Origin: Solirubrobacteraceae bacterium
GTDB taxonomy: Bacteria; Actinomycetota; Thermoleophilia; Solirubrobacterales; Solirubrobacteraceae
Assembly (NCBI GenBank): GCA_030655275.1
Contig: JAURVW010000352.1
Location: 1-32,661, forward strand
Direction of reading: 5' to 3'
DNA: 32,661 nucleotides
Below, one piece after another: positions 642-32,029 of this stretch (within the stretch, counting starts at the first letter, position 1; each line of letters begins with the position of its first letter). Under the pieces are notes generated by a model, which saw only the letters and a list, made by a program, of their open reading frames with translations, ran no database searches and was not told the DNA's origin. The position numbers were made by a program, and so were the translations under genes.

Positions 642-2543
642 ATGCGTTGCCGCGCCGCTCTTATCGCAGCCGTCGCCACCGCCCTGGTCTTTCCAGCGGC
701 GGCCGGTGCGGCAACGCTCAACCCCCACTTCCTGCCGATGGCCGGCCTGCTCGACGAGATCGGGAAGGTCATCTTCGGCGGCCTGGAGTTCGGAGCCAAG
801 GAGCTTGGAAAGCTCGTGCTCTCGCTCATCGCGGGGATCGCCGACATGATCGTCCCGGACTCCTGGGGCAAGAAGGGCGTCGAGTTCATCAAGTGGCTCG
901 CCGCGATCCCGGACTACACCGGGAAGGGGTTCAGCGACTTCCACCAGATGCGCCGCATGACGCTCGGTCTGGCGCTGATCCTGCTGCCCGTCACGATGAC
1001 CTGGGCGGGCGCTGCATGGATGTTCGGCACCGAGCGCAGCGAACCGCTGCAGGCGATCATCATCCGCACGCTCACGGTGATCATCCTGCTGATCTCGTGG
1101 GGCACCGTCTGGAAGACGGTCCCGGCGCTGGGTAACCAGCTCACCAACGCGTTTCTGTCGATGCCGGCGGTCTCCACCGGCCTGCAGAAGTACATGGAGG
1201 TCGCCGTCGCTGGCGGCCTGCTCGGGTCGATCCCGTTCCTGGGCGCCCTGATCTGGATGCTCGCCGCGTTCCTGCTGGTCTGCGGCGTCGGCCTCAAGGT
1301 CTTCATCCTGCTGCTCGGCGGGATCCTCTACTTCGTCGGGCCGCTGCTGCTCGCCGTCGCCCCGCTGCAGGCCGGCTCGCGGCTGTTGCGCCGCTACATG
1401 GCGCTGTTCGTCGCGATCCCGGTCCTGCCGCTGGCGTTCGCGATCATCTTCACCGCGGCCGCACTCTTCATCAAGGGTGCCGCTGGCATCGGGACCGCGA
1501 TCGGCGGGAGCTCGGTCTTCGGCGCGGCCGCCGGCAGCATCATCGCGGGCTTCTCCGCGATCCTCGGACCGCTGCTGTGCTTCGGCGTGGCCAAGCGGAT
1601 GCTCGGCCCCGGCATGGACTCCCTCAAGGGGTCCGTCAGCAACTTCTCCCCCGCTGCGTCACTGGGCAAGGCCAAGGCCAGCCTCGCGGCGGCGCGCGGC
1701 GGCGTCACCGGCCGCTCAGCAGGCCAGACCGCCACCTCCGCACACGGCGCCGCGGGTCCGCGATCGGCAATGCAGAGCCTTTCGGAGTCGCGCATCGGCG
1801 TGCGCCAGGCCATCCAGGTCGGCGCTGGTTTCGCGGGTCTGGGCGCCAAGCCCCCTACCCCGGCACGCGCCGCGCTGCGGACCGCGCAGATCGCGGCTCG
1901 AGGAGGCCCGCAGGCCCTTGCCGGCGTCGGCGTCGGATACGCCACGGCCGGAGCGCGCGCGAACCTCGCAGGTCGCGGCGGCGTCAAGGGCATGGCCCGC
2001 GACGCGGCCACCAAGCTGCGCACGCCCGACGGCCGCCCCAACGGCACCGCGGCGGCGCACGAGGCCGCCGTCCACAGCCTTCGTCCCGAGGGCTTCCGCG
2101 GCCCCCAGGAGCCGGGCGTGGCGCCCAAGACGAACGCTCGCAAGCCCCCGGCCCGCTCAACGGCCGACAGCCCAGGATCGCGCCTTCCCGGCGCCTCTCC
2201 GGAGCCGCTTCGCGCAGAGGAGCGCGCCAAGCTCGCGGGAACCGCGAGCAACGGTCGCCAGACCCCTGCGCCGTCGCACACGCTGCTGCCCGACCGCGGC
2301 AGCCGCGGGCCGTCCGTCACGCCCGACTCGACGATCCACCTGCCCGCCGGCGGGCGGCGCCGCACGACCTCCGAGGGCTCGATGCCCTCCCGGTCTGCGT
2401 CCACGCCCAGCCTCCGGCCTGACAGCGGTCCGGAGGGCCCCACGCCGCGGCCCACGCAGCAGCGGCCCGTCTCGCTGCAGCACCCCACGCGCCCGGAGCG
2501 TCCGGGGTCTGGTCCACGCCTCGATCGCCGCGAAAACGCATGA
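642..2543 (+). CDS. TrbL/VirB6-like polytopic conjugal transfer membrane protein with long Pro/Arg/Ser-rich C-terminal tail
   Basis: N-terminal signal, many TM helices over ~first 330 aa, low-complexity basic tail; 4 nt downstream of previous stop. Confidence 0.7.
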   Translation: MRCRAALIAAVATALVFPAAAGAATLNPHFLPMAGLLDEIGKVIFGGLEFGAKELGKLVLSLIAGIADMIVPDSWGKKGVEFIKWLAAIPDYTGKGFSDFHQMRRMTLGLALILLPVTMTWAGAAWMFGTERSEPLQAIIIRTLTVIILLISWGTVWKTVPALGNQLTNAFLSMPAVSTGLQKYMEVAVAGGLLGSIPFLGALIWMLAAFLLVCGVGLKVFILLLGGILYFVGPLLLAVAPLQAGSRLLRRYMALFVAIPVLPLAFAIIFTAAALFIKGAAGIGTAIGGSSVFGAAAGSIIAGFSAILGPLLCFGVAKRMLGPGMDSLKGSVSNFSPAASLGKAKASLAAARGGVTGRSAGQTATSAHGAAGPRSAMQSLSESRIGVRQAIQVGAGFAGLGAKPPTPARAALRTAQIAARGGPQALAGVGVGYATAGARANLAGRGGVKGMARDAATKLRTPDGRPNGTAAAHEAAVHSLRPEGFRGPQEPGVAPKTNARKPPARSTADSPGSRLPGASPEPLRAEERAKLAGTASNGRQTPAPSHTLLPDRGSRGPSVTPDSTIHLPAGGRRRTTSEGSMPSRSASTPSLRPDSGPEGPTPRPTQQRPVSLQHPTRPERPGSGPRLDRRENA

Positions 2544-2601: not shown

Positions 2602-3000
2602 ATGTCCCTCGTCCTTCGACGCTTTAACGACCCCACCCGGTGGGTCGGCGTCCCGATCGGCACGTGGTTCGGCGGCGGCGGCGCCGTCGGCCTGCTCGCG
2701 CTGGCGTTCTACATCATCAAGCCGCCGTTCATGCTCGCGGTCGGTTTCACCATGTGGGTGATCTTCCTGCCGTCCGGCCTGGTCCTGCTGTGGGCCGCCG
2801 TGACCGGCGTTCCGCTGCTGCTGCTCGTCTCGGACTTCCTCCGATTCCTGCTGCGCCGCCGCCGGGTGCTGCAGCACGTCTCGCGCTCCCATCTCAAGGG
2901 CGGGATCTACGTGCGAGACATGCCCGCCGTCGTCACCTACGACCAGCCGGCGTGGACCAGCGACGTGGAGATCCCCGAGCCAAACCAGGACGCACGATGA
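2602..3000 (+). CDS. VirB3/PrgI-like T4SS membrane protein
   Basis: 132 aa with two hydrophobic segments, directly upstream of and ATGA-overlapping the VirB4-like ATPase. Confidence 0.65.
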   Translation: MSLVLRRFNDPTRWVGVPIGTWFGGGGAVGLLALAFYIIKPPFMLAVGFTMWVIFLPSGLVLLWAAVTGVPLLLLVSDFLRFLLRRRRVLQHVSRSHLKGGIYVRDMPAVVTYDQPAWTSDVEIPEPNQDAR

Positions 3001-5771
3001 GCCCTTGGAACCAGTCCGAGAAGACTCCTAAGGCCAAAACGCCGAAGGCGAGGACGTCGCCGCTGGGCAGCCTTCTGGACGTGGCGGTGGTGGAGCCCGA
3101 CGGCCTGATCGTCACGACCTCCGGCGACTACGTGCGCCTGGTTGAGATCGGTCGGGTGCCCAACCTGTTCTTTGCCACCGACGAGCAGCGCGCCCGCACG
3201 ATCGACTACTGGACCCGCCTGTGCGGGTCGATCCCCAACCAGCAAGAGCTGTGGTTCTTCGTCCTGCGAAACCCGCTGCCCCCGGAGCTGGTCTCAGCGC
3301 CCGACGTGGCGATCGCCCGCCGGGTCGCCGACCGCGACATGAAGCGCGTCGACGACCCGCTGCACGAGGACATGGCCCGCATGCGTCTGCGGCTCGAACG
3401 CCTCACCGCGCGGACCGTCTCCGAGGCCGCCACGGGCGACATGGGCGCCTCGTGGGCCCGCCACTACGCCGCCGTCGTCTGGCGGCCTCAGCCGGGCCGC
3501 AAGGTCCGTGACCAGGCTGGCTACTACCTCATGCGTGGCGGCAAGATGTCGCGCAGCAAAGCCCACGCGCGCAGCTACGCCTACACCGAGCACTACAACG
3601 CCGCCCTGGCGTCGCGCAACCTCGCGCTGTCGGTCGCCGCTCGCCTCAGCGACAGTGGCGCCCACACCGCCCAAGTCGACGGTGTTCACGCCCTCTCGCT
3701 GCTGTGGGAGCGCCTGCACCCCGCCGCGGGGCCCCACCCTCACCCCGAGCGCCTGGCCGACGTGTGCTCGACGCTCGCAGCCGGTTCGCCGGCCGAGGCG
3801 GCCCGCGCGCGGGCCGTGATCGTCGACGAGCTCGTTGCGGGCATGCCCGAGTACGAGATCCCTGAGGCCGAGCTGGACCTGACCAACCACGACTACGTTC
3901 GTCACTCAGACGGCACGTTGGAGGAGACGCTGTGGCTGGCCAAGCAGCCCGCGACCGCCGACCCGTGGTGGCTGGACCCGCTCTCGCAGACCGCGCTCGC
4001 CAGCACGCTGGCCGTCCGGATCCGACCCGAGGACCGCTCCGTGGCCCGCGTCTCCACGCGGACCCGCGTCGCTCGTCAGCAGGTCGCGATCGACGGCGCC
4101 AGTCGCCCAGTCTCGCGCGAGCAGTGGAAGGTGCTCGACGAGACCGAGACGGTCAACGAGCAACTGCAGTCCGAAGCCGGCGCGACCGTCTTCAAAGTCT
4201 CGGTCTACCTGAGCCTGCGCTGCACGTGGGGCGACTCCGACGCCCTGGAGACGACGGCCGACAAGCTCGCCACCGACTACCGCACCAACCTGGACGCCAC
4301 GCTCATGCGCGGCCGCCGGCTCGGGGCCCGTGGACTGCTGTCCTCACTGCCAATCGCCTCCGACCGGCTCAAGCGCGTCACCAAGTGGGCCTACAGCGAC
4401 ATGGGGCACCTCACCCCGCTGTCCTCGAGCCGCTGCGGCCACGACCGCGGCATGCCGCTGGGCTTCGCCTGGCCGCACGCCACCCTGGAGCGGCTGGACC
4501 TCTTCGACCGCAAGGCCGGAACGTTCATCGTCGGCATCACCGGCAAAGGCGGCCACGGCAAGACGCTCACCGCCAACGTGCTCGCCGCGCGCGCCACGCC
4601 CCCAGGCATGCGCCTTCGGATCATCGACCGTTCGACGGTCAGCGACGAGGACCACCACGCCCGTACCGGAGGCCACTACGACGCGCTGCTCTCGCTGATC
4701 CCCGGATCAGCACGAGTCGCGATCGGCACGCGCGACGCCAACGCCTCGCGGCTCAACCCGTGGGACGTGGACGACGTGACCGACGTGCACGACAGCCAGA
4801 TCTCGTTCCTGGCCACGCTGCACGACCTGCTCATCGGCGACGTGCACGGAGCCAACTCCTCCGATCGCCGCCTCGACGCCACCGACAAGGCGATCGTCAC
4901 CAACGCGATCACCGACGTGTACGAGCTGTGCGCGCAAGACCCCGACCTGCAGCCGACCGAATCGCTGCTCGTCGACCGCCTCAAGGAGCTGTACCTGGAG
5001 GCGTTTGACTCCGACGCCGAGACCGACCTGAGCCAGCGCATCCGCTCGCTGCTGGTCCGCCTGCAGGCCTACGCCTACGACGGCCCGCTCTCGTTCCTGA
5101 TGGACGAGCCCACGACCATCCCGCGCGACGCGCCGGCGATCGTCTTCGACACCACAGGCGTTCCAAAGGAGCGTCTGGCCGCCGTTCAGTACATCGTGCT
5201 GCAGGCCATCAACACCGAGGCCGAGCGGCTGTTCCAGCAGCGCCGCAAAGCGGGCCTGCCCGCCGAGTCCTGGCAGGACCGGCTGATGGTGATCGTCGAG
5301 GAGATCTGGCACCTCACCGACACCGAGGCAGGCCACCAGATGCTCAAGGAGTGGGCCCGTCGCGGCCGCCACCTCTACATGGTGCTCGTCTGGGTCACGC
5401 AGTTCCTCAACGACCTGGACTCGGCCGGCGGCCGCGGCCTGCTCGGCCAGACCAGCACGCTCATCACGCACTTCCAGGATGAGGCCAACGTCGCGCCGAT
5501 CGCCGCGTCGGCCGGTCTGACGGCCAACGACATCGCCAACATCGGCATGCTGCGCACCCGCCCGGGCGAGTTCAGCGAGGCGTTCGTCAAGACCAACGCC
5601 GGTCGCGGCAAGGTCCGCATGGCGTACGCCGCGCCCGAGTTCTGGGCCCTGGCGCAGGACCCCGAGGCCAACCAGCCGGTCCGCGCGATCGCGCTGGAGC
5701 GCTCCGGCGGTGACCCGTGGAAGGCGATCGAGCTGCTTGCCGATCCCGAGTCCGACCTAACCGCCGCCTGA
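2997..5771 (+). CDS. VirB4-like conjugative ATPase
   Basis: 924 aa; Walker A GITGKGGHGKT; RLMVIVEEIWHL (Walker B-like) and ARRGRHLYMVLVWVTQ motif typical of VirB4/TraC-type ATPases. Confidence 0.85.
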   Translation: MSPWNQSEKTPKAKTPKARTSPLGSLLDVAVVEPDGLIVTTSGDYVRLVEIGRVPNLFFATDEQRARTIDYWTRLCGSIPNQQELWFFVLRNPLPPELVSAPDVAIARRVADRDMKRVDDPLHEDMARMRLRLERLTARTVSEAATGDMGASWARHYAAVVWRPQPGRKVRDQAGYYLMRGGKMSRSKAHARSYAYTEHYNAALASRNLALSVAARLSDSGAHTAQVDGVHALSLLWERLHPAAGPHPHPERLADVCSTLAAGSPAEAARARAVIVDELVAGMPEYEIPEAELDLTNHDYVRHSDGTLEETLWLAKQPATADPWWLDPLSQTALASTLAVRIRPEDRSVARVSTRTRVARQQVAIDGASRPVSREQWKVLDETETVNEQLQSEAGATVFKVSVYLSLRCTWGDSDALETTADKLATDYRTNLDATLMRGRRLGARGLLSSLPIASDRLKRVTKWAYSDMGHLTPLSSSRCGHDRGMPLGFAWPHATLERLDLFDRKAGTFIVGITGKGGHGKTLTANVLAARATPPGMRLRIIDRSTVSDEDHHARTGGHYDALLSLIPGSARVAIGTRDANASRLNPWDVDDVTDVHDSQISFLATLHDLLIGDVHGANSSDRRLDATDKAIVTNAITDVYELCAQDPDLQPTESLLVDRLKELYLEAFDSDAETDLSQRIRSLLVRLQAYAYDGPLSFLMDEPTTIPRDAPAIVFDTTGVPKERLAAVQYIVLQAINTEAERLFQQRRKAGLPAESWQDRLMVIVEEIWHLTDTEAGHQMLKEWARRGRHLYMVLVWVTQFLNDLDSAGGRGLLGQTSTLITHFQDEANVAPIAASAGLTANDIANIGMLRTRPGEFSEAFVKTNAGRGKVRMAYAAPEFWALAQDPEANQPVRAIALERSGGDPWKAIELLADPESDLTAA

Positions 5772-10994: not shown

Positions 10995-11060
10995 GCCCAA
11001 CACCCGTCGGACCTCCGCAGGCTCCGGCCCAACGCGCTTCGCCCCTTCGGGGTGTCGAGC
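10995..11060. repeat. Copy 1 of ~66-bp dispersed repeat upstream of regulator
   Basis: gcccaacacccgtcggacctccgca...tccggccc/aac...gcttcgccccttcggggtgtcgagc, matches 31963..32029. Confidence 0.9.
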
Positions 11061-18361: not shown

Positions 18362-19063
18362 GTGACGCAGATGACCGCCGACAACGCCCCTCTCTGGTTC
18401 CGTCTGACTGCCGCCGAAGCGGAGCAGTACGTGCGCGCCGTGAGCGTCGCGCACCCGTACCTGATCCACCAGCAGCGCGACGGCTACGTGCGCTTGGCGC
18501 CGGTCAAGGAATCGGGCATGCGCTACACGATCGGTCGCACCCCCGGCAACCATCTGCCGGTCCCCAACGAGCACGTCTCGGGCCTGCACGCCGTCCTCGA
18601 GCGGCGCGCCGGCCTGCTCGTCATCGAGGATCAGAGCAGCCGCAACGGGACCTTCGTTAACGGCCGCAAGGTCACGGCCGCCCACACGCTGCACGACGGC
18701 GACGAGCTGCTGATCGCGACGACCAAGTTCCTTGTGCGCTGCCCGACCGGCGCCGAGGGCACCGGCACCACCGTGCTGCCTAGCGCGCCGGACTGGGACA
18801 CCCTCTGGCCCTCGCACCGCCAGTTGCTCATCATGCTGGTGGATCTCACGCGCAGCAACGAGGGCCGGCCTCCCAGCCACACCGAGCTTGCCGAGGCGCT
18901 TGGTGCCAGCAGCGAGGCGACCAAGGGCCGCCTGCGCGGCATCCGCGACAAGTTCCGCGAGGCTGGCGAGACGGCTAGCTTCCGGACCCCGGCGCTCGCC
19001 GAGATCGCGCTGATGCATGAGGAGTCGCTGCGCGCCTCCGCGGCCGCCAACGACGACGACTGA
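18362..19063 (+). CDS. FHA-domain protein with C-terminal HTH-like region
   Basis: YTIGRTPGNHLPVPNEHVSGLHAVLERR...IEDQSSRNGTFVNGRKV. Confidence 0.85.
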   Translation: MTQMTADNAPLWFRLTAAEAEQYVRAVSVAHPYLIHQQRDGYVRLAPVKESGMRYTIGRTPGNHLPVPNEHVSGLHAVLERRAGLLVIEDQSSRNGTFVNGRKVTAAHTLHDGDELLIATTKFLVRCPTGAEGTGTTVLPSAPDWDTLWPSHRQLLIMLVDLTRSNEGRPPSHTELAEALGASSEATKGRLRGIRDKFREAGETASFRTPALAEIALMHEESLRASAAANDDD

Positions 19064-19072
19064 CGCTGCCCG

Positions 19073-21094
19073 ATGGCGATGCCGTTCCCCGAGGTGCTGA
19101 CCGCCGGCACGATCGTCGATGGTCGATTTGAGATCACCGGTCCGCTCGGTCACGGCGGCACCGCGACGGTCTACTCCGCTCGCCAGCTCTCCGTGGAAGG
19201 CCGCCCGGTCGCGCTCAAGGTCATGCACTCCTACCTCACCGGAGACCCCGATTTCGTTCGCAGCTTCAAGCGTGAGGCCGGGCTGAGCGGCCACCTGGAT
19301 CACCCCAACATCGTCTACGTCCACGAGTCGGGCGAGCACGACGGCCACCTCTACATCGCGATGCAGAAGGTGTCCGGCACGACGCTCCGCCAAAACCTGC
19401 AGGGCGGCCGCCGCAGCCTCGATGCGGCCGCGGTCCTTGCGATTTTGGAATACGTCGCCGACGCGCTCGACTACGCCCACCAGGAGGGCGTCACGCACCG
19501 CGATGTCAAGCCGGAAAACATCCTGCTCGACCACCGCGGCCGCGTCTACCTCGCCGACTTCGGCATCGCCCGTGCCGCGAGCACAGCGACGATGACGCGC
19601 CGGCAGATGGCCACGGAGAACTACGCCGCTCCCGAACAGCTCAAGCGAGTCAAGGGCGAGAAGCTGACCGGCGCCGTCGACATCTATGCGCTCGCGATCG
19701 TCGCCTACGAAGCGCTCACCGACGCCCCCGGTCCCTACGACGCACAGGACCAGAGCATCGTCTTCGCGCACCTGGAGCAGCAGCCATTGCCGCTGCTCCC
19801 GGCCGGGCCCGGCGCCGACGCCCTACACGCCGCCCTGAGTCGTGGCCTGGCCAAGGCGCCGGCCGATCGGCCCGCCACGGCGCGCGAGTTCGTCGAGGAC
19901 CTGCGCCAGGCGCTCGCCGTCGATCCCGCCGCCGGCGAGCGCGTGCCGGCGTTCTCCCAGGACAACCCCGGCGGCGACGAGGATCTGGACTGGAACGACC
20001 CCGATCCTCACGTCGGACTTACGATCGCGCTGCCGGGTGCCACCGAGCTTCCGAGCGAGCCAGCCACGCAGGTCACGGGCGAGCTGCCAGCCTTCGCCTG
20101 GCCCGAAGCGCCGACCGTGACCGCGCTCGTCGACGAGCCCCTTCCCGCCGCGGTGACCGCGCCCGTCCCTGCCCCCGCTCCCGCTCCTGCGGCGCCCGTC
20201 GATGAGGCTCGGCCGGTTCGGCGACGGAGATCGCCAACGCTTCCAGCGCTGCCCACCTGGTGGCCGCTCCCGCTCGCCGTGCTGACGATCGCCGCGCCGC
20301 TCGTGGCGCTGCGGTCGCGACCCGAACCGCCGCCCGGCCCCTCCGCACTGCGAGCGGGCCCGGTGAGCTTCACCGCGGCAACCGGAACGCGACCGGTGGC
20401 CAACCCGCAGCCGATCGCGGCGGCCGCGCTCAAGGGCGCGCCGGCCGGCGGCTCCACCACGGCGATCGGCACGCCCGGCGACGGCGTGGCCGTGCGCTCG
20501 CTGACCTCCGGTACCGCGGCGATCGCCCCGGCCGACGCGACGTCGGCCGAGACCCTGCGGATCGCGGGCGGCACCGCTCGCCGCTACCGCGTGGGCGCCT
20601 CCACCATCACCGTGGCCCAAACGCCCGAGACGATCGTGTGGGCGGGCTGCAGTCGCCCGAGCTCGGCGGTCTGCTCGCAGGCGCTCGGGTCGCTGACAGC
20701 CGGTGACGAGACGCTGCAGGCCGACCCGATCCCAAACGTCGCCGAGACGATCACCGCGGCGCTCGCCCAGGCTCGCGAGCGACGCCAGCGGCCCATGCCG
20801 ACCACCGACCGCGCCCGCCGCCAAGAACGCGCGGTGGCGATTGCCACTGCCTACCGCCGCGGCGCCCAGCGCCTGGACTCCTTCGTCGACGAGCGTCCTC
20901 GAGACCGAGACGTGCGAGATCTCGCCACCGCGGTGCGCGCGGCCGCCGACAGCTACACGCGCATTGCAGGCGCAGCCGACACCAAGTCCACGACCTCTGA
21001 CCGCCGCGGCCGCGCCGCGCTGGCATCAGCCGACGCACGGATCGCGCGCGCCGGCAAGAAGCTCGCGGCCCGCGGCTACAAGGTGACCCCATGA
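19073..21094 (+). CDS. PknB-like Ser/Thr protein kinase with one TM helix and extracytoplasmic region
   Basis: LGHGGTATVYSAR; VALKVMHSY; THRDVKPENILL; LADFGIARA; TM LPLAVLTIAAPLVAL. Confidence 0.92.
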   Translation: MAMPFPEVLTAGTIVDGRFEITGPLGHGGTATVYSARQLSVEGRPVALKVMHSYLTGDPDFVRSFKREAGLSGHLDHPNIVYVHESGEHDGHLYIAMQKVSGTTLRQNLQGGRRSLDAAAVLAILEYVADALDYAHQEGVTHRDVKPENILLDHRGRVYLADFGIARAASTATMTRRQMATENYAAPEQLKRVKGEKLTGAVDIYALAIVAYEALTDAPGPYDAQDQSIVFAHLEQQPLPLLPAGPGADALHAALSRGLAKAPADRPATAREFVEDLRQALAVDPAAGERVPAFSQDNPGGDEDLDWNDPDPHVGLTIALPGATELPSEPATQVTGELPAFAWPEAPTVTALVDEPLPAAVTAPVPAPAPAPAAPVDEARPVRRRRSPTLPALPTWWPLPLAVLTIAAPLVALRSRPEPPPGPSALRAGPVSFTAATGTRPVANPQPIAAAALKGAPAGGSTTAIGTPGDGVAVRSLTSGTAAIAPADATSAETLRIAGGTARRYRVGASTITVAQTPETIVWAGCSRPSSAVCSQALGSLTAGDETLQADPIPNVAETITAALAQARERRQRPMPTTDRARRQERAVAIATAYRRGAQRLDSFVDERPRDRDVRDLATAVRAAADSYTRIAGAADTKSTTSDRRGRAALASADARIARAGKKLAARGYKVTP

Positions 21095-23352: not shown

Positions 23353-24666
23353 ATGAGCAAGCTCCCGAAAGAGAACACGATCTGGCTGGCTGTTTCGGCC
23401 GCGCTGGTGATCGGCGTTGTCTTCCTCGCGGCCGCCGGCATCAGCGGCCTGGGCGACCTTCCCGTCAGACCCGGGCCGCCCGGCAAGGGCGCGGCGATCG
23501 AGAATGTGGGTGCTACCCCGCAAGAGAAGGCGGCTGCGATCACCGCCGCCGCGACCGCGGACGCCGCTCAGGTGACGCGATACAACGCTGACGTAGGTGC
23601 GTGGGCGACGGAACGAGCGAACAAGCGAACGTCGTCGTTTGCTCTCTTGGCCGGGGCGGTTGCGCTGCTTACTGCTGCCGTTGGCGCGGCGACCCACGCT
23701 GAAACAGTCCGCAAGAACCGTGGCGACAGCCAGTCTGCCGCCGAAGGACGTGCTGACGACCGGTTCGCGACGGCTATCGAACACCTTTCCAGCAAACAGC
23801 TTGGCGTCCGTATTGGGGGCATTTTTTCCCTGGAAGCGCTCGCTCGCGAGGCCGAAGGGCGCATCCAGACAGTCGTCCAAGTGCTACTGGCACACGCCGA
23901 ATCGTGGACCGATGGCGCTAAGAGTTGGTCCGAGCGGCCAGATGGTGCCGAGCCCTATCCAGCCCCGAGTGATGTTCGCGGGGCATTTGCGGCAGCCGCC
24001 AGGGTACGCACCGTCGATGCGATGCCGATTATTGACCTCAGCTATGCCGACTTGGGGGCTGCCGAAATCGCAGCAGTGGACTTGCGCCACGCAGACCTAA
24101 GCAACGCAGTTCTAACCAAAGCCGACCTTCGGTTCGCAGTCCTCAAAGGGGCGAACCTTCAGTGCGCCGTCCTGGCAGAGGCGGGGCTAGACGGTGCCAA
24201 CCTGACTGATGCCGATATGAGACAAGCCGATCTCACTGGGGCGTCGCTCATAGGAACGCAACTGTCCGGCGCGCGTTTGGCGGGCACTGTGTTCTGGGGC
24301 GTTGAGCTTTCGGAAGTTGACCTCATCGGGGTGGACCTCCGTGGGGCAGACCTCGTCGGCGCCCACCTTGAACTCGCCGACCTAGCACGGACGCGATTGG
24401 ACGGTCCAGAGCTGATCGGTGCCACAGGCGTTGGTTCGCACAGCTCCCACGAAACCTTCTTTGCCAAGCTCATTGGCGAGCATGTAACGGTGGCCTCATC
24501 TGTCGGCGACGATCAGCGTGGCGTCATCCAAGAAGTCGAGGTAGACCCCGGACCTCAGGAGGTCTTCGACGCGGACCTAAGTCTCGGCCTATCGCTCGGC
24601 GACGATAAGACGAAGCTTCTGTGGATCGCCAACTCGATGGTTAGGCCCCACGTCTTCCCCTTCTAA
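23353..24666 (+). CDS. Membrane-anchored pentapeptide-repeat protein
   Basis: Two TM helices, RFATAIEHLSSKQLGVRIGGIFSLEALAREA segment, then ADLxxAxL repeats (LRHADLSNAVLTKADLRFAVLKGANL...). Confidence 0.8.
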   Translation: MSKLPKENTIWLAVSAALVIGVVFLAAAGISGLGDLPVRPGPPGKGAAIENVGATPQEKAAAITAAATADAAQVTRYNADVGAWATERANKRTSSFALLAGAVALLTAAVGAATHAETVRKNRGDSQSAAEGRADDRFATAIEHLSSKQLGVRIGGIFSLEALAREAEGRIQTVVQVLLAHAESWTDGAKSWSERPDGAEPYPAPSDVRGAFAAAARVRTVDAMPIIDLSYADLGAAEIAAVDLRHADLSNAVLTKADLRFAVLKGANLQCAVLAEAGLDGANLTDADMRQADLTGASLIGTQLSGARLAGTVFWGVELSEVDLIGVDLRGADLVGAHLELADLARTRLDGPELIGATGVGSHSSHETFFAKLIGEHVTVASSVGDDQRGVIQEVEVDPGPQEVFDADLSLGLSLGDDKTKLLWIANSMVRPHVFPF

Positions 24667-25887: not shown

Positions 25888-26064
25888 GTGCTGCTGGTGC
25901 ACGCCCGCGCCGCGACCATCTCGCGCGTCCGCTCCCGGACGGCGCGCGGGGTGGTGGCGATGCCGGCAGGCACCCACACACCAGCGGTCATCCCCGCAGC
26001 CCCGCAGCTCGTCGACGAGCTGGCGATCGTGCACGCGCTCCTCGAGGAGGCCGCGTGGTCGTAG
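25888..26064 (+). CDS. Small ORF (58 aa) overlapping start of replication initiator
   Basis: GTG start; VLLVHARAATISRV...LVDELAIVHALLEEAAWS*; carries SD gaggagg for next CDS. Confidence 0.4.
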   Translation: MLLVHARAATISRVRSRTARGVVAMPAGTHTPAVIPAAPQLVDELAIVHALLEEAAWS

Positions 26065-28619
26065 TCACCACTGCCCTCCAGCGGGAGCATGGCGCTCGCT
26101 CGCGAGCGCGCGACGCCGTTCGCGAGCGGCCGCGCCGCGGCGCTCACCGCCGCTGGTCACGCGACCGGATCTGGCATCCGGCCGCGCACGTCTCGCTGGC
26201 CGAACGTCGCCAGCCCGATCGCGTGGAGATCTCCGCGGCCGTTCAGCGCTACCGCCTGCAGTGTGGCCGCAAGACCGCTGGCGACGATGAGCTGTTCGCG
26301 CACCTGGTGGCGCTCGTCCACGTGCTCTACGCCAAGGCTCACACCGAGCAGGCGCAGACGGACGCTGGCGAGAAGAAGAAGGGCAGCGCCCACTTCGCGA
26401 CGACCTACGAGCAGATCATGTCGGCGCTGGCTGAGAAGTTCGGCATCTGGGGCCCGGCGCCGACGAAGGACACGCCCGAGCGCGAGGAGTGGGTCTCAGA
26501 CCACCGACCGCGGCTCTACGACTGGCTGGAGATCCTGCGCCAGTCTGGGCTCATCAGCCACGACAGCCGCGGAGTCAAGGACAACGCGCGCGTCTGGTGG
26601 CGCACAGAGGTCACCGTGCTCGGCGTCCCGGCCGATCTCACGCGCGAGGAGCTAGCGGCCGCACGCAGCTACGCGGCCGCGTTCCCGGACCGTGAGCGCG
26701 ATCGCCGGCGCCGCGGCCGCGTGCGTCCCTACGCGGAGATCTTCAAGGCAGCCAAGCGGCCCAGCAAGACCCAGAAGAAGGCGAAGGCGATCGTCACGGC
26801 GCGGGCCACCCGCAAAGCCCGGCGTGGTCCTCACAGCGGAAGTTCAGGTGGTCCTTGCAGTCCTGCGTTGCCCCCTACGGGGGCAACAGCAGAATTCGAG
26901 CCAACACCTTTTGATGAAGAGGCGTTTACAACTCCAAATACGTCTCTAGATAGGACGGGTGTGCGCGAGCGCCCACGTCCGGGTACCCCGGACCGATCAC
27001 GGCGGCTTCGCCGCAGTGTTCCTGCCGATCACTCCCGCGTCAGGCCGACGCCACGTGGCGGCAACCTTGAGCCTCCAGCCGGGTATCCCGGCGAGGGAGA
27101 GGGGGAGCTTTCCGAGCATGTCCGCAGGGCTCAGCGTGGGCCTCACGGCCGTAGACGGTCTCGTGGGCCGGTTTCGCCGGTCGAACGGGCCACTTGGGTT
27201 GAGGAGGGCCTGTCGATGGCGCAAACCCTGCGGGCGCTCGGCGCCGACGTCGACCTGACCGACGGGCCGTCGCTGGAGGCGATCACCAGAGCGTGGTACC
27301 TGGAGCGCTACGGCGAGGACGAGATGATGCGGCTGCTGCCGTGGTGCCCGCGCTTCGATGTGGCCGAGCTCGTCGACGCCGCGGCGCTCTACCGCCGCCA
27401 CGCGGCGGCCAAGCTGCCCGGCTGGCCGACCGATCCGCTCGGCGCGCTGCTGCGGATGGCCTCCACCCCGCTCCCGCCCTACGAGGTCCGCGTCCGCCAG
27501 GACGACGGGCGCTGGAAGGCCTTCACCCGTTACTCCGAGCGGCCCGAGACGATCGCCTACGCCGTTCGCGGCCTCCGAATGCTCGCTCGGGACATGGCGG
27601 CCGCCGCGGTGCTCCTCGAGGACCGCCGCCCGGCAGTCCAGGAGCCGGAGATCTACCAGCAGCCGACGGGCGGCCGCGTGTCGTTCCGCCACGAGGTCCG
27701 CGAGGCGTGGGACGAAGACGAGGCCACCCGCCGCCAGCGCGTCCGCGACCAGCTCGTGAAGGCCGGAGGCAACCCGCGCCGCCACCACGACTGCGAGTCG
27801 ATGGAGTTGGAGCTGGTCGACCGCGAGCGCCACGACCTGCTCCCGGCCCAGTTCGCCTACCCCAGCCCAACGAAGATGCGCGCCCACCGCGGCGCTTGGA
27901 TGCCGGCCTGGTACGTCACCACGCCCGACGCCCTCTCCCCCGTCTCGGCCTGGGCGCAGATCCTCGCCGCCGCCGGCGAATGGATCGACGAGCACACGAT
28001 CGAGCTGTGGCTGACGGGCCTCGCCCCGATCGAGCTGGCCGACGGCACCCTGACCGTCGCCGGACCGGCCACCCACGTGCAGTTCGTGACGACCCGCCTC
28101 GCGACCGTCCTCGACCAAATCCGCGAGGCCAGCGGCGTGGCTCGGCGTCTGCGCATCGTGGACCTGGCGGACTTCTCCGGCGGCCGCCATCACACCCCGC
28201 CGCGGCCGCCGGCCGCCGACCCCGGCGCCGACGGCAAAGCCGCCCGGGCTGGCCGCCACCTCAAGCGGATGGAGATAGAGCGCCGCCGTCTGCTCACCGA
28301 GCGCGACCAGACGATCAGCGACACCGAGCTCGTCGCTCGCCGCTCCTCGGCGACCGCCGACAACGAGACCTGGGACGAGCTGATGGATATCGCCGCGACC
28401 CGCGCCGAGTTCCACGGACCGACGGTCGTGGACCTGTGGCTGCGGCCGCTACTGCCGCGCTTCGGTGACGACGGCATCCTGACACTGACGGGGCACGCAT
28501 CGACGATCGAGCCGGTCCGGATGCGGCTCGGAGATCAGGTGACGCATCTGGTGCGCGCGATCGTCGGAGGCCGCGGCGTGGCGTGGCACGCGATTGACGA
28601 TTCGGAGGCCTGTCGATGA
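26055..28619 (+). CDS. Putative replication initiator: N-terminal helical/wHTH-like region, low-complexity linker, two C-terminal DnaA_N-like domains
   Basis: SD gaggagg + GTG; WAQILAAAGEWIDEHTIELWLTGLAPIELADGTLTVAGPATHVQFVTTRLATVLDQIREASG and WDELMDIAATRAEFHGPTVVDLWLRPLLPRFGDDGILTLTGHASTIEPVRMRLGDQVTHLVRAIVG both fit DnaA domain I pattern. Confidence 0.65.
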   Translation: MVVVTTALQREHGARSRARDAVRERPRRGAHRRWSRDRIWHPAAHVSLAERRQPDRVEISAAVQRYRLQCGRKTAGDDELFAHLVALVHVLYAKAHTEQAQTDAGEKKKGSAHFATTYEQIMSALAEKFGIWGPAPTKDTPEREEWVSDHRPRLYDWLEILRQSGLISHDSRGVKDNARVWWRTEVTVLGVPADLTREELAAARSYAAAFPDRERDRRRRGRVRPYAEIFKAAKRPSKTQKKAKAIVTARATRKARRGPHSGSSGGPCSPALPPTGATAEFEPTPFDEEAFTTPNTSLDRTGVRERPRPGTPDRSRRLRRSVPADHSRVRPTPRGGNLEPPAGYPGEGEGELSEHVRRAQRGPHGRRRSRGPVSPVERATWVEEGLSMAQTLRALGADVDLTDGPSLEAITRAWYLERYGEDEMMRLLPWCPRFDVAELVDAAALYRRHAAAKLPGWPTDPLGALLRMASTPLPPYEVRVRQDDGRWKAFTRYSERPETIAYAVRGLRMLARDMAAAAVLLEDRRPAVQEPEIYQQPTGGRVSFRHEVREAWDEDEATRRQRVRDQLVKAGGNPRRHHDCESMELELVDRERHDLLPAQFAYPSPTKMRAHRGAWMPAWYVTTPDALSPVSAWAQILAAAGEWIDEHTIELWLTGLAPIELADGTLTVAGPATHVQFVTTRLATVLDQIREASGVARRLRIVDLADFSGGRHHTPPRPPAADPGADGKAARAGRHLKRMEIERRRLLTERDQTISDTELVARRSSATADNETWDELMDIAATRAEFHGPTVVDLWLRPLLPRFGDDGILTLTGHASTIEPVRMRLGDQVTHLVRAIVGGRGVAWHAIDDSEACR
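26867..26887. repeat. 9-bp perfect hairpin in initiator linker
   Basis: GTTGCCCCC-TAC-GGGGGCAAC. Confidence 0.85.
26977..26993. repeat. Dyad GTCCGGG-TAC-CCCGGAC in initiator linker
   Basis: Perfect 7-bp arms; related to GCCGGG-TAT-CCCGGC at 27078..27092. Confidence 0.85.
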
Positions 28620-29032: not shown

Positions 29033-29065
29033 GCCAGCGCGGCGCCGTGGTGGCGCCGCGCTGGC
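29033..29065. repeat. 14-bp perfect-stem hairpin
   Basis: GCCAGCGCGGCGCC-gtggt-GGCGCCGCGCTGGC. Confidence 0.9.
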
Positions 29066-29135
29066 GCGCCGGCGGCGCGCGGAGGGTTCTCTCCTCTTCC
29101 GACCCACAATGGACATGCTGCTCCGTCAAGGTATA

Positions 29136-29152
29136 CGCTGTACCGTACAGCG
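29136..29152. promoter_or_regulatory. 17-bp palindrome CGCTGTAC-C-GTACAGCG
   Basis: Perfect 8-bp arms, full form of the CTGTA motif, preceded by GTATAC. Confidence 0.7.
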
Positions 29153-29165
29153 GCTTGTACGCGAG

Positions 29166-29330
29166 CCATGACCACCCTGCACCCCAAACGATCCGGAAAA
29201 CAGGCCCATTGCCCGCGCCTGCGAATGCGACCACACACCCCCAACGTGGAACAAGTTCTGTTGGTGATGTGTGGTCGCATTCTTGTCTTGGTTATGGGCC
29301 TGTGGATCTGGGGGTGCAGGGTGGTCATGG
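29166..29330. repeat. Long imperfect inverted repeat (165 bp)
   Basis: 29166-29185/29311-29330 (20/20), 29200-29209/29294-29303 (10/10), 29223-29237/29268-29282 (15/15), 29241-29245/29260-29264, apex GAAC-AA-GTTC 29249-29258. Confidence 0.95.
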
Positions 29331-29592
29331 TGCAGGTCTGTGGTTGGTCCAGAGTATTTTTGTGACGGAGTTGTTTGGTGGGTAGGAAGAGAAGAGAACG
29401 AGTGACGCGCGCCTGGCCTGGCCGGGGAGTAAGAGAGCTAAGGCAGCCAGCGGGCTCTACGGAGTACGAGCGGGTTGGTCGCGCGAAGAAGGTCGGTTTC
29501 GCTGGCGCGAAAGCCGACTGGAGGGGGGAGATTCTCTCCCCCGGGCCCCCTCTACCGCGCGTTCGCGCGGGGGCTGTCTACGGGGTCTTGGC

Positions 29593-30492
29593 GTGCTGAC
29601 AGATCGAGATGTTTGGTTTGTTCGCCAGCTCCAGCGGACTGGCGGCATGACCGCGCGTCAGATGGCCGTCGCGGCCGGTCTGACGATCGCCGCGCCCGCT
29701 CCTCGGGAGCCGGTGCTGGCGGCCGCTCAGGCGGCCGACGCCCGGTCACGCAAGAAGCGTCCGAGCACCACGGTGCCCAGCTCTACTGGGCAGCGGATCG
29801 TGGAGCGCCGGATGGCCGAGCTGCATCGCCTGAACTTCGCCCGACCGGCCCGGCCCTACGGCCCGGGCTCCGAGGGCATCTGGGTGCCGACCCGCACGGG
29901 CTTGCGCGAGCTGCTGGCCGACGACGTGAGCGAGGACGACCCGAGCATCGGCGCCGGGACCTACAAGCATCAGTACGGGTGCGGCGAGGTCTACGCGCTG
30001 CTGACGCGGCTCGACCTGTACCACCTGACCGAGCGCGAGATCCGGCGCAAGCACGCGGAGGAGGACCACCGCCGCTACTCGCTCAAGACCGGTCCGGAGT
30101 CGTGGCACCAGCCCGATGGTCTGGTCTACCCGACCGTCGAACACGTGCGTGACGAGCGGCCGATCGCGATCGAGCTTGAACGGTCCCGTAAGGGCGGGAC
30201 GCGCCTGCGCAAGATCATGGAGCGCTACCGCGCCCACGAGGTGATCGACCATGTGATCTACGTGTGCACCCGCGAGACGCTGGTCTCCACCCGCAACGTG
30301 GTTAGCGGGAAGCCCATTGCCAAGGGCCAGCCGCCCAAGACGCCAATGGAGGAGACCGTGACCGTGATCGAGCTCGGCGACCTCTACTCAGCGCTGCCCG
30401 CGTTCCTGGCCGATCGCGGAGCCAACGGCGTTCCGGAGTTCACGAAGGCCGAGACGCGGCGCTTCGGTGTGGCGGTGGCTCGCTACTTTTAG
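29593..30492 (+). CDS. Replication-relaxation family protein
   Basis: GTG start; LTDRDVWFVRQLQRTGGMTARQMAVAAGL wHTH; FARPARPYGPGSEGIWVPTRTGLREL; HVRDERPIAIELERSRKGGTRLRKIMERY. Confidence 0.7.
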   Translation: MLTDRDVWFVRQLQRTGGMTARQMAVAAGLTIAAPAPREPVLAAAQAADARSRKKRPSTTVPSSTGQRIVERRMAELHRLNFARPARPYGPGSEGIWVPTRTGLRELLADDVSEDDPSIGAGTYKHQYGCGEVYALLTRLDLYHLTEREIRRKHAEEDHRRYSLKTGPESWHQPDGLVYPTVEHVRDERPIAIELERSRKGGTRLRKIMERYRAHEVIDHVIYVCTRETLVSTRNVVSGKPIAKGQPPKTPMEETVTVIELGDLYSALPAFLADRGANGVPEFTKAETRRFGVAVARYF

Positions 30493-30560
30493 CCGGCCAG
30501 GCCGGCCGCCCGTCTCTCGGTCTCTTGCTCCCCCGTGCCCCGCCTGCTCGAGTGCCGTAG

Positions 30561-31454: not shown

Positions 31455-31661
31455 TCCGACCTCCTCTGTGCGCGGGGGTCAAGCCTAGCTGCGGTGCCGC
31501 TGCACCAGGACCAGAGGCTCTTCGATCGACCGCGATGGGCACCTCAAGGCGTGGTCCGCGCAGACCCGAGACGACGCCAGCTCACGACGGAGGTCGGCGG
31601 GCTCCCCCGCCTCGTGCCGGGTGGCCCCGCCTGCCGCTGGGCACCGCCGCCACCACCGGGC

Positions 31662-31703
31662 ACACCCGCCACGAGGCGGGGGGCCCCGCCAGATGGCGGG
31701 TGT
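31662..31703. repeat. Nested inverted-repeat cluster
   Basis: ACACCCGCCA 31662-31671 / TGGCGGGTGT 31694-31703; inner GGCGGGG-gg-CCCCGCC 31675-31690; dyad CCCGCCA-ga-TGGCGGG 31685-31700. Confidence 0.8.
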
Positions 31704-31962: not shown

Positions 31963-32029
31963 GCCCAACACCCGTCGGACCTCCGCAAGTTCCGGCCACA
32001 ACGGGCTTCGCCCCTTCGGGGTGTCGAGC
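31963..32029. repeat. Copy 2 of ~66-bp dispersed repeat upstream of ssb
   Basis: gcccaacacccgtcggacctccgcaagttccggccacaacgggcttcgccccttcggggtgtcgagc. Confidence 0.9.

Follow-up and report, generated by a model that had tools for sequence, protein, structure and literature searches.

Of all parts of a mobile element, the origin of transfer (oriT) is the hardest to recognise from sequence, and for most mobilizable elements the helper thus cannot be assigned. One type, in which a MOBC oriT contains a large inverted repeat, is already known from Enterococcus: the pAM373 oriT and pAD1 oriT2 regions were reportedly mapped experimentally as oriTs by Francia and Clewell in 2002, and pAD1 oriT2 is said there to be a large inverted repeat adjoining short direct repeats. 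TraX of pAD1, the MOBC prototype, binds five direct repeats in the oriT, 70–120 bp from nic (PMC12857230). PF13814 represents the MobC relaxase superfamily (PMC5357655); the MOBC relaxases are related to PD-(D/E)XK restriction endonucleases, and MobC of CloDF13, which gave the group its name, belongs to the same superfamily as the putative relaxase described below (PMC12857230). The present analysis concerns a stretch of 32,661 nucleotides from a Solirubrobacteraceae bacterium (contig JAURVW010000352.1, assembly GCA_030655275.1), hereafter the window, which carries a giant imperfect palindrome at ~29080–29410 and, downstream of it, a gene for a divergent MOBC-type (Replic_Relax) protein at 29593–30492 (both on the plus strand, as are the sequence blocks given below). 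We consider it likely, with a probability of about 0.82, that the palindrome serves a conjugative or mobilizable element as its oriT and is recognised by this putative relaxase. What is new is a very divergent actinobacterial member with a nested double motif, a signature that crosses phyla, and integrative elements that carry the hairpin only.

The palindrome and its plasmid counterparts

The original prediction, read from the letters alone, described a near-palindrome with a 165 bp core reaching up to ~230 bp; the palindrome is real but larger, the arm alignment extending the pairing outward beyond the core to a length of 331 bp. Its local palindrome score, 104, is by far the top value of the window, and the runner-up scores 82. 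In the proposed folding check, 29131–29360 reached −72.8 kcal/mol as DNA, whereas its shuffles averaged −36.9 (z −10.5; none of 200 equal), and the full element 29080–29410 folded as RNA gives −186.5 kcal/mol. The three nested blocks listed in the prediction are all exact: the outer block CCATGACCACCCTGCACCCC (29166–29185) pairs 20/20 with GGGGTGCAGGGTGGTCATGG (29311–29330), the middle block ACAGGCCCAT (29200–29209) 10/10 with ATGGGCCTGT (29294–29303), and the 5′ side of the inner stem, GAATGCGACCACACA (29223–29237), which holds the family motif GACCAC, 15/15 with the 3′ side TGTGTGGTCGCATTC (29268–29282). The outer block resembles the inner conserved motif, so that the GACCACCC motif is present twice, nested. 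Farther out, CTCCGTCA and TGACGGAG form additional pairing blocks, and the outermost left block GTTCTCTCCTCTTCCGACCCAC (29086–29107) pairs with the outermost right block GTGGGTAGGAAGAGAAGAGAAC (29378–29399).

The apex contains CAACGTGG (29242–29249), a candidate nick region. The predicted apical GAACAAGTTC (29249–29258) is indeed found at the apex, but its self-pairing is absent from the predicted folds; the sequence MTTLHP can be read from both strands, as had been pointed out, because the sequence is palindromic, but neither of the two readings has support as a gene. The arms are ~73% alike overall and combine long exact blocks with unpaired bulges between them, so that a recent duplication and a fold-back of the assembly are both excluded; no second near-identical copy was found in the host genome. 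The putative relaxase gene is bracketed by a 34 bp inverted repeat (85%; 29392–29425 and 30493–30526), the left copy of which overlaps the palindrome's outermost arm.

The Enterococcus faecalis plasmid pAM373, assigned to MOBC by MOB-suite, has its strongest palindrome (score 81) between the replication-relaxation gene and a TraG-like gene, an interval which we take to be its mapped oriT. The window thus resembles the pAM373 oriT and pAD1 oriT2 in having a large inverted repeat beside a MOBC-type gene, and resembles pAM373 in combining a CCTGACCA inner stem with a CAACGTGG apex: the pAM373 hairpin motif CCTGACCA..CAACGTGG has the window counterpart GCGACCAC..CAACGTGG, and the reading on the relaxase strand is CCTGACCATTTTAGCGCAACGTGGGG in pAM373 and GCGACCACACACCCCCAACGTGGAAC in the window. 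GACC and C.ACGT, the latter including the apical ACGT, are invariant in an alignment of the window, pAM373, Bacillus (Bt), Peribacillus and Paenibacillus hairpins. Unlike the hairpins of pAM373 and pAD1, that of the window is longer (~331 bp), has the nested double GACCACCC motif and belongs to an uncultured actinobacterium.

In nine of ten MOBC-type plasmid loci taken from PLSDB (three Bacillus plasmids, three Paenibacillus plasmids, and plasmids of Sporomusa, Peribacillus and Bdellovibrio), the upstream palindrome exceeds the maximum of a Markov null, and in most of the nine the relaxase gene is followed by that of a type IV coupling protein (T4CP). The hairpin is located at exactly −250 in the three Bacillus plasmids and reads CTGACCACTCAC..GTGAGTGGTCAG; the three Paenibacillus plasmids, typed MOBC by MOB-suite, have GACCCCACC within the inner stem, and the outer stems of the two closest of them differ through compensating changes. 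The MOBC plasmids of Bacillus thuringiensis/cereus and Paenibacillus resemble the window in having a giant hairpin (unannotated), in their case 250–790 bp upstream of the replication-relaxation gene, and differ from it in their AT-richer flanks and in the T4CP gene, which mostly comes directly after the relaxase gene.

The neighbouring gene and the hairpin family

The prediction of a replication-relaxation gene downstream of the palindrome is supported, but the gene starts at 29593, ~183 bp past the end of the right arm and not 260 bp. Residues H126, D175, E194, E196, K200 and R204 (window numbering) do not vary among the 18 proteins compared, which include MOBC-type plasmid relaxases; the resulting pattern D..ExE...K fits PD-(D/E)xK, and proteins of the family combine a winged helix at the N-terminus with a C-terminal PD..ExE...K motif. 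AlphaFold modelling yielded a predicted local distance difference test score (pLDDT) of 72 for the window protein and 84 for its Elusimicrobia homologue at locus L131. A Foldseek search with the window model gave the restriction enzyme EcoO109I as the best PDB match (probability 0.99, E 6.7e-3), the best PDB matches of the L131 model are the PD-(D/E)xK enzymes Hjc/Hje (resolvases), PspGI and VC1899, and the models also match PadR/MarR winged helices. The NCBIfam model MobC_subf (NF041423) matches the catalytic part of the window protein with E 4.4e-4, far under the 200-bit cut-off; eight additional relaxases from the set match NF041423 without exception (E 8e-14 to 0.08), and the relaxase of locus L114 matches PF13814 above the cut-off. 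The window protein has no Pfam match, even at E 5, and a tblastn search of PLSDB plasmids returned 0 matches; the relaxase profile, run against PDB sequences, had only winged-helix proteins and ribosomal eS10 among its best matches. The invariant catalytic residues and the modelled fold suggest that the gene product belongs to the MOBC/Replic_Relax family, as the original prediction had supposed, but the sequence match to the named family is weak on its own.

A DNA search of 100 related genomes produced one weak match, in a genome from a different genus of Solirubrobacteraceae (G005), and this match is another giant hairpin, with an apical TGGAACAAGTTCTG as in the window; with the G005 hairpin as query, four more hairpins of like architecture were found (L024, L025, L026 and L030). 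A pattern built from the common inner stem of those hairpins, GACCACNCNCCCNCAN{15,45}GNGTGGTC, was scanned in one pass over 85,488 species genomes, gene information being unused, and gave 83 loci, ~25 of which are true giant hairpins as judged by adjacent pairing and folding. The inner motif common to the family is GACCAC..CCC..CAAC../..GTGGTC, and the hosts include Solirubrobacteraceae, Elusimicrobia (several hairpins per genome), Bdellovibrionota/Oligoflexia, an Actinomycetota metagenome-assembled genome (MAG) and others; G005, G030 and G045 (loci L102/L052, L115 and L060) are Solirubrobacteraceae/Solirubrobacterales. Some 55 of these 83 loci are chance matches in which adjacent pairing is absent, e.g., five near-identical Amycolatopsis loci and those of Rhizobium/Ensifer; motif-only GGAACAAGTTCTG matches in four genomes (G025, G384, G356 and G013) were likewise set aside as chance, the hairpin being absent. 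In a viral collection, the hairpin pattern gave 6 loci, 0 of them accepted as hairpins, and a relaxase scan returned nothing.

Covariation of the arms, one of the checks suggested with the prediction, was counted directly at the eight flanking base pairs that the search pattern leaves free. Of the cells at these pairs, 75% are Watson–Crick, and every pair occurs in three or four types; reshuffling the right arms among the hairpins gives 45% on average and 56% at most. The pairing has therefore been kept by selection.

A MOBC-type gene is located at most 300 bp away in 14 of 29 hairpin instances, the window included, and a relaxase gene beside a hairpin often precedes xis and int. When 16 hairpin-bearing genomes were searched independently with one relaxase, 15 matches resulted; all full-length genes among them, those of Elusimicrobia included, have a hairpin 40–340 bp upstream on their own strand. 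The relaxase search also added hairpin loci outside the seed set (L135, L138, L140 and the pseudogene L143), and in the MAG LSA5.bin12 the five contigs with a hairpin account for all five relaxase loci. The gene order at the Bdellovibrionaceae locus L049 is T4CP (PF12696), relaxase, hairpin, and at L114, too, the hairpin comes after the relaxase gene. Distances between hairpins correlate with those between relaxases (Mantel rho 0.51, p 2e-4, 20 pairs), the Elusimicrobia lineage driving the correlation (0.61, p 0.0018). The palindrome is thus conserved near homologous genes, being linked to MOBC/Replic_Relax genes in several phyla, and this linkage, together with the co-variation of hairpin and protein within a lineage, supports the predicted role, that of an oriT on which the neighbouring protein acts.

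Most of the chromosomal hairpins have a tyrosine integrase gene within a few kb, and L049 and L114 have, by eye, a serine recombinase. The G005 hairpin is inside an integrated element delimited by a 43 bp tRNA-Met repeat, with copies ~13.5 kb apart; an integrated element of the closed genome G011 likewise encloses a hairpin and has a 23 bp tRNA-Arg repeat, with copies ~20 kb apart. Both elements have xis and int at the tRNA end, no relaxase was recognised beside either hairpin, and they look like mobilizable elements whose only transfer function would be the oriT. Attachment (att) repeats in tRNA genes were not found for L059, L061, L076, L089 and L099. The cargo of hairpin elements includes defence-like genes, i.e., AIPR (L031), CHAT (L022) and a type I restriction-like gene (L074).

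A probable transfer origin and competing explanations

The gene for a TraC/VirB4 ATPase and that for a single-stranded DNA-binding protein (SSB) in the window are counted as support for the oriT of a conjugative element. Several results weigh against it. The window protein is very divergent, and the Foldseek E-values of the models are moderate, ~1e-3 to 1e-2; half of the hairpins have no relaxase gene beside them, among them four of the five from Solirubrobacteraceae relatives for which wide flanks were retrieved; and the correlation of hairpin and relaxase distances is absent among the other nine pairs. In the converse test, for which 30 loci were chosen by PF13814 alone in 399 actinobacterial genomes, the palindromes upstream of the gene do not exceed in strength those found elsewhere (median 37 vs. 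39, p 0.14), and a giant palindrome is absent from CloDF13, unlike the window, and from the Francisella plasmid pFPK_1. Finally, the pAM373 palindrome is flanked by 5.5 copies of a 12 bp direct repeat, whereas the window has no clear repeats of this type next to the hairpin, just a weak GC-rich array of 11 bp (2.9 copies, 29037–29080), and no significant repeated hexamer was found beside its palindrome. As most actinobacterial PF13814 genes, CloDF13 and pFPK_1 lack the hairpin, it is confined to some branches of the MOBC family; a giant hairpin as a universal MOBC feature is ruled out by those actinobacterial genes.

The original prediction also named a replication origin or single-strand initiation site. 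A double- or single-strand origin might be used by the Rep-like protein encoded at 26055–28619, which has a DnaA-domain-I-like part and whose gene ends ~460 bp before the palindrome, and large strand-specific hairpins are typical of the single-strand origins of rolling-circle plasmids. Such origins, like the folded leading-region promoters (Frpo), are long imperfect hairpins active once the DNA is single-stranded; to our knowledge, neither is tied to MOBC relaxases or shares sequence with the window. The relatives of the hairpin accompany MOBC-type genes and integrases, not this Rep gene, and the Rep protein has 0 tblastn matches in any other hairpin locus; a replication origin in place of an oriT is accordingly unlikely, although the palindrome may have a dual role, as an oriT and in priming in the recipient. 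The integrases near most chromosomal hairpins, several of which have no relaxase, could instead point to a folded attachment site for a tyrosine integrase, like integron attC or CTX phage attP. However, in the G005 and G011 elements, the att repeats are in tRNA genes, kilobases away from a hairpin that remains intact inside the element, the hairpins of the MOBC plasmids adjoin relaxase and T4CP genes, and no integrase is seen in the window, which makes this explanation very improbable.

A structured RNA, another option of the prediction, is not favoured either. Two observations favour a non-coding RNA or a transcribed regulatory structure of the relaxase operon: most hairpins lie upstream of the relaxase gene and on its strand, and the window arms alone have 13 G.T against 2 A.C mismatches on the plus strand; over 29 hairpins, however, the two kinds are nearly equal (78:63, p 0.24), which is unexpected under selection on an RNA strand. 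The hairpin, moreover, follows the relaxase gene in L049 and L114, and a search with the Rfam 15 covariance models matched no family to the window or its relatives' hairpins; we give an RNA little credence. Long palindromes can also arise from inverted insertions or chimeric assembly, but a relic of a miniature inverted-repeat transposable element (MITE) or an assembly artefact is hardly credible here: the arms have diverged to ~73% and still pair in long exact blocks, the genome has no other copy, and the architecture is conserved in independent assemblies and closed plasmids. The prediction had named a recent MITE as an outcome that would count against it, and the palindrome is not one.

If the palindrome is an oriT, supercoiling or partial unwinding of the DNA would let it extrude as a hairpin or cruciform; the relaxase would bind the conserved inner stem (GACCAC..) and nick one strand at or close to the apical (A/T)AC(G/C) segment. 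The freed strand would then pass through the coupling protein and the type IV secretion system (T4SS) to the recipient, where the same hairpin might aid religation and/or complementary-strand priming. A broader proposal is tentative, and we regard it as rather doubtful when taken as a whole: the MOBC relaxases of this lineage might read the oriT as a folded structure (an extruded cruciform or single-stranded hairpin) and cut it as structure-selective PD-(D/E)xK nucleases, and the relaxase-less elements with hairpin, xis and int in several phyla might be oriT-only hitchhikers mobilized in trans. Such cutting would contrast with that of the HUH relaxases, which cut a linear single strand, and the fold of these nucleases would be akin to that of the Holliday-junction resolvases. 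The question raised is whether a relaxase with a restriction endonuclease fold reads DNA shape or a linear nick site. The giant hairpin with GACCAC..(A/T)AC(G/C)..GTGGTC is a searchable signature; it ties the experimentally studied but little-followed-up Enterococcus oriT type to elements of Actinomycetota, Elusimicrobia, Bdellovibrionota and Bacillota, and flags hairpin elements that lack a relaxase and often carry defence-like cargo.

Other genes of the window and of hairpin loci

The window, with which the contig ends, is probably part of a conjugative element, either a plasmid or an integrative and conjugative element (ICE). The plus-strand gene at 2958–5771 encodes a T4SS ATPase (TraC/VirB4; NCBIfam TraC-F-type, E 6e-26), and the adjoining plus-strand gene at 642–2543 encodes a likely TrbL/VirB6-type T4SS membrane protein, which has a weak match to Pfam TrbL (E 0.86). 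The product of 26055–28619 (plus strand) is a putative replication protein whose C-terminal, DnaA-domain-I-like part matches the N-terminal part of the chromosomal DnaA of relatives (E 1e-8 to 1e-9); no Pfam match was obtained for it, and it is possibly a new plasmid or ICE replication protein. The window also encodes an M23 peptidase and the SSB, upstream of whose gene a strong 34 bp inverted repeat (85%) with a 27 nt loop is located at 31596–31690. The stretch 18362–21094 encodes an FHA-domain protein and, after it, a Ser/Thr protein kinase; a pentapeptide-repeat protein is encoded at 23353–24666, and a 35 bp direct repeat (94% identical) has copies 21 kb apart, at 10995–11029 and 31963–31997.

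Two further hairpin loci have unusual layouts. At L072, two family hairpins are located ~1.5 kb apart in the same orientation (475–530 and 1946–1990, reverse strand) and surround a small gene of unassigned family and xis, a relaxase gene not being beside them. The Elusimicrobia locus L061 (4571–7713) is compact, its 3.1 kb comprising a hairpin, an integrase gene, a deaminase plus RecG-C-like gene, and a tRNA gene.
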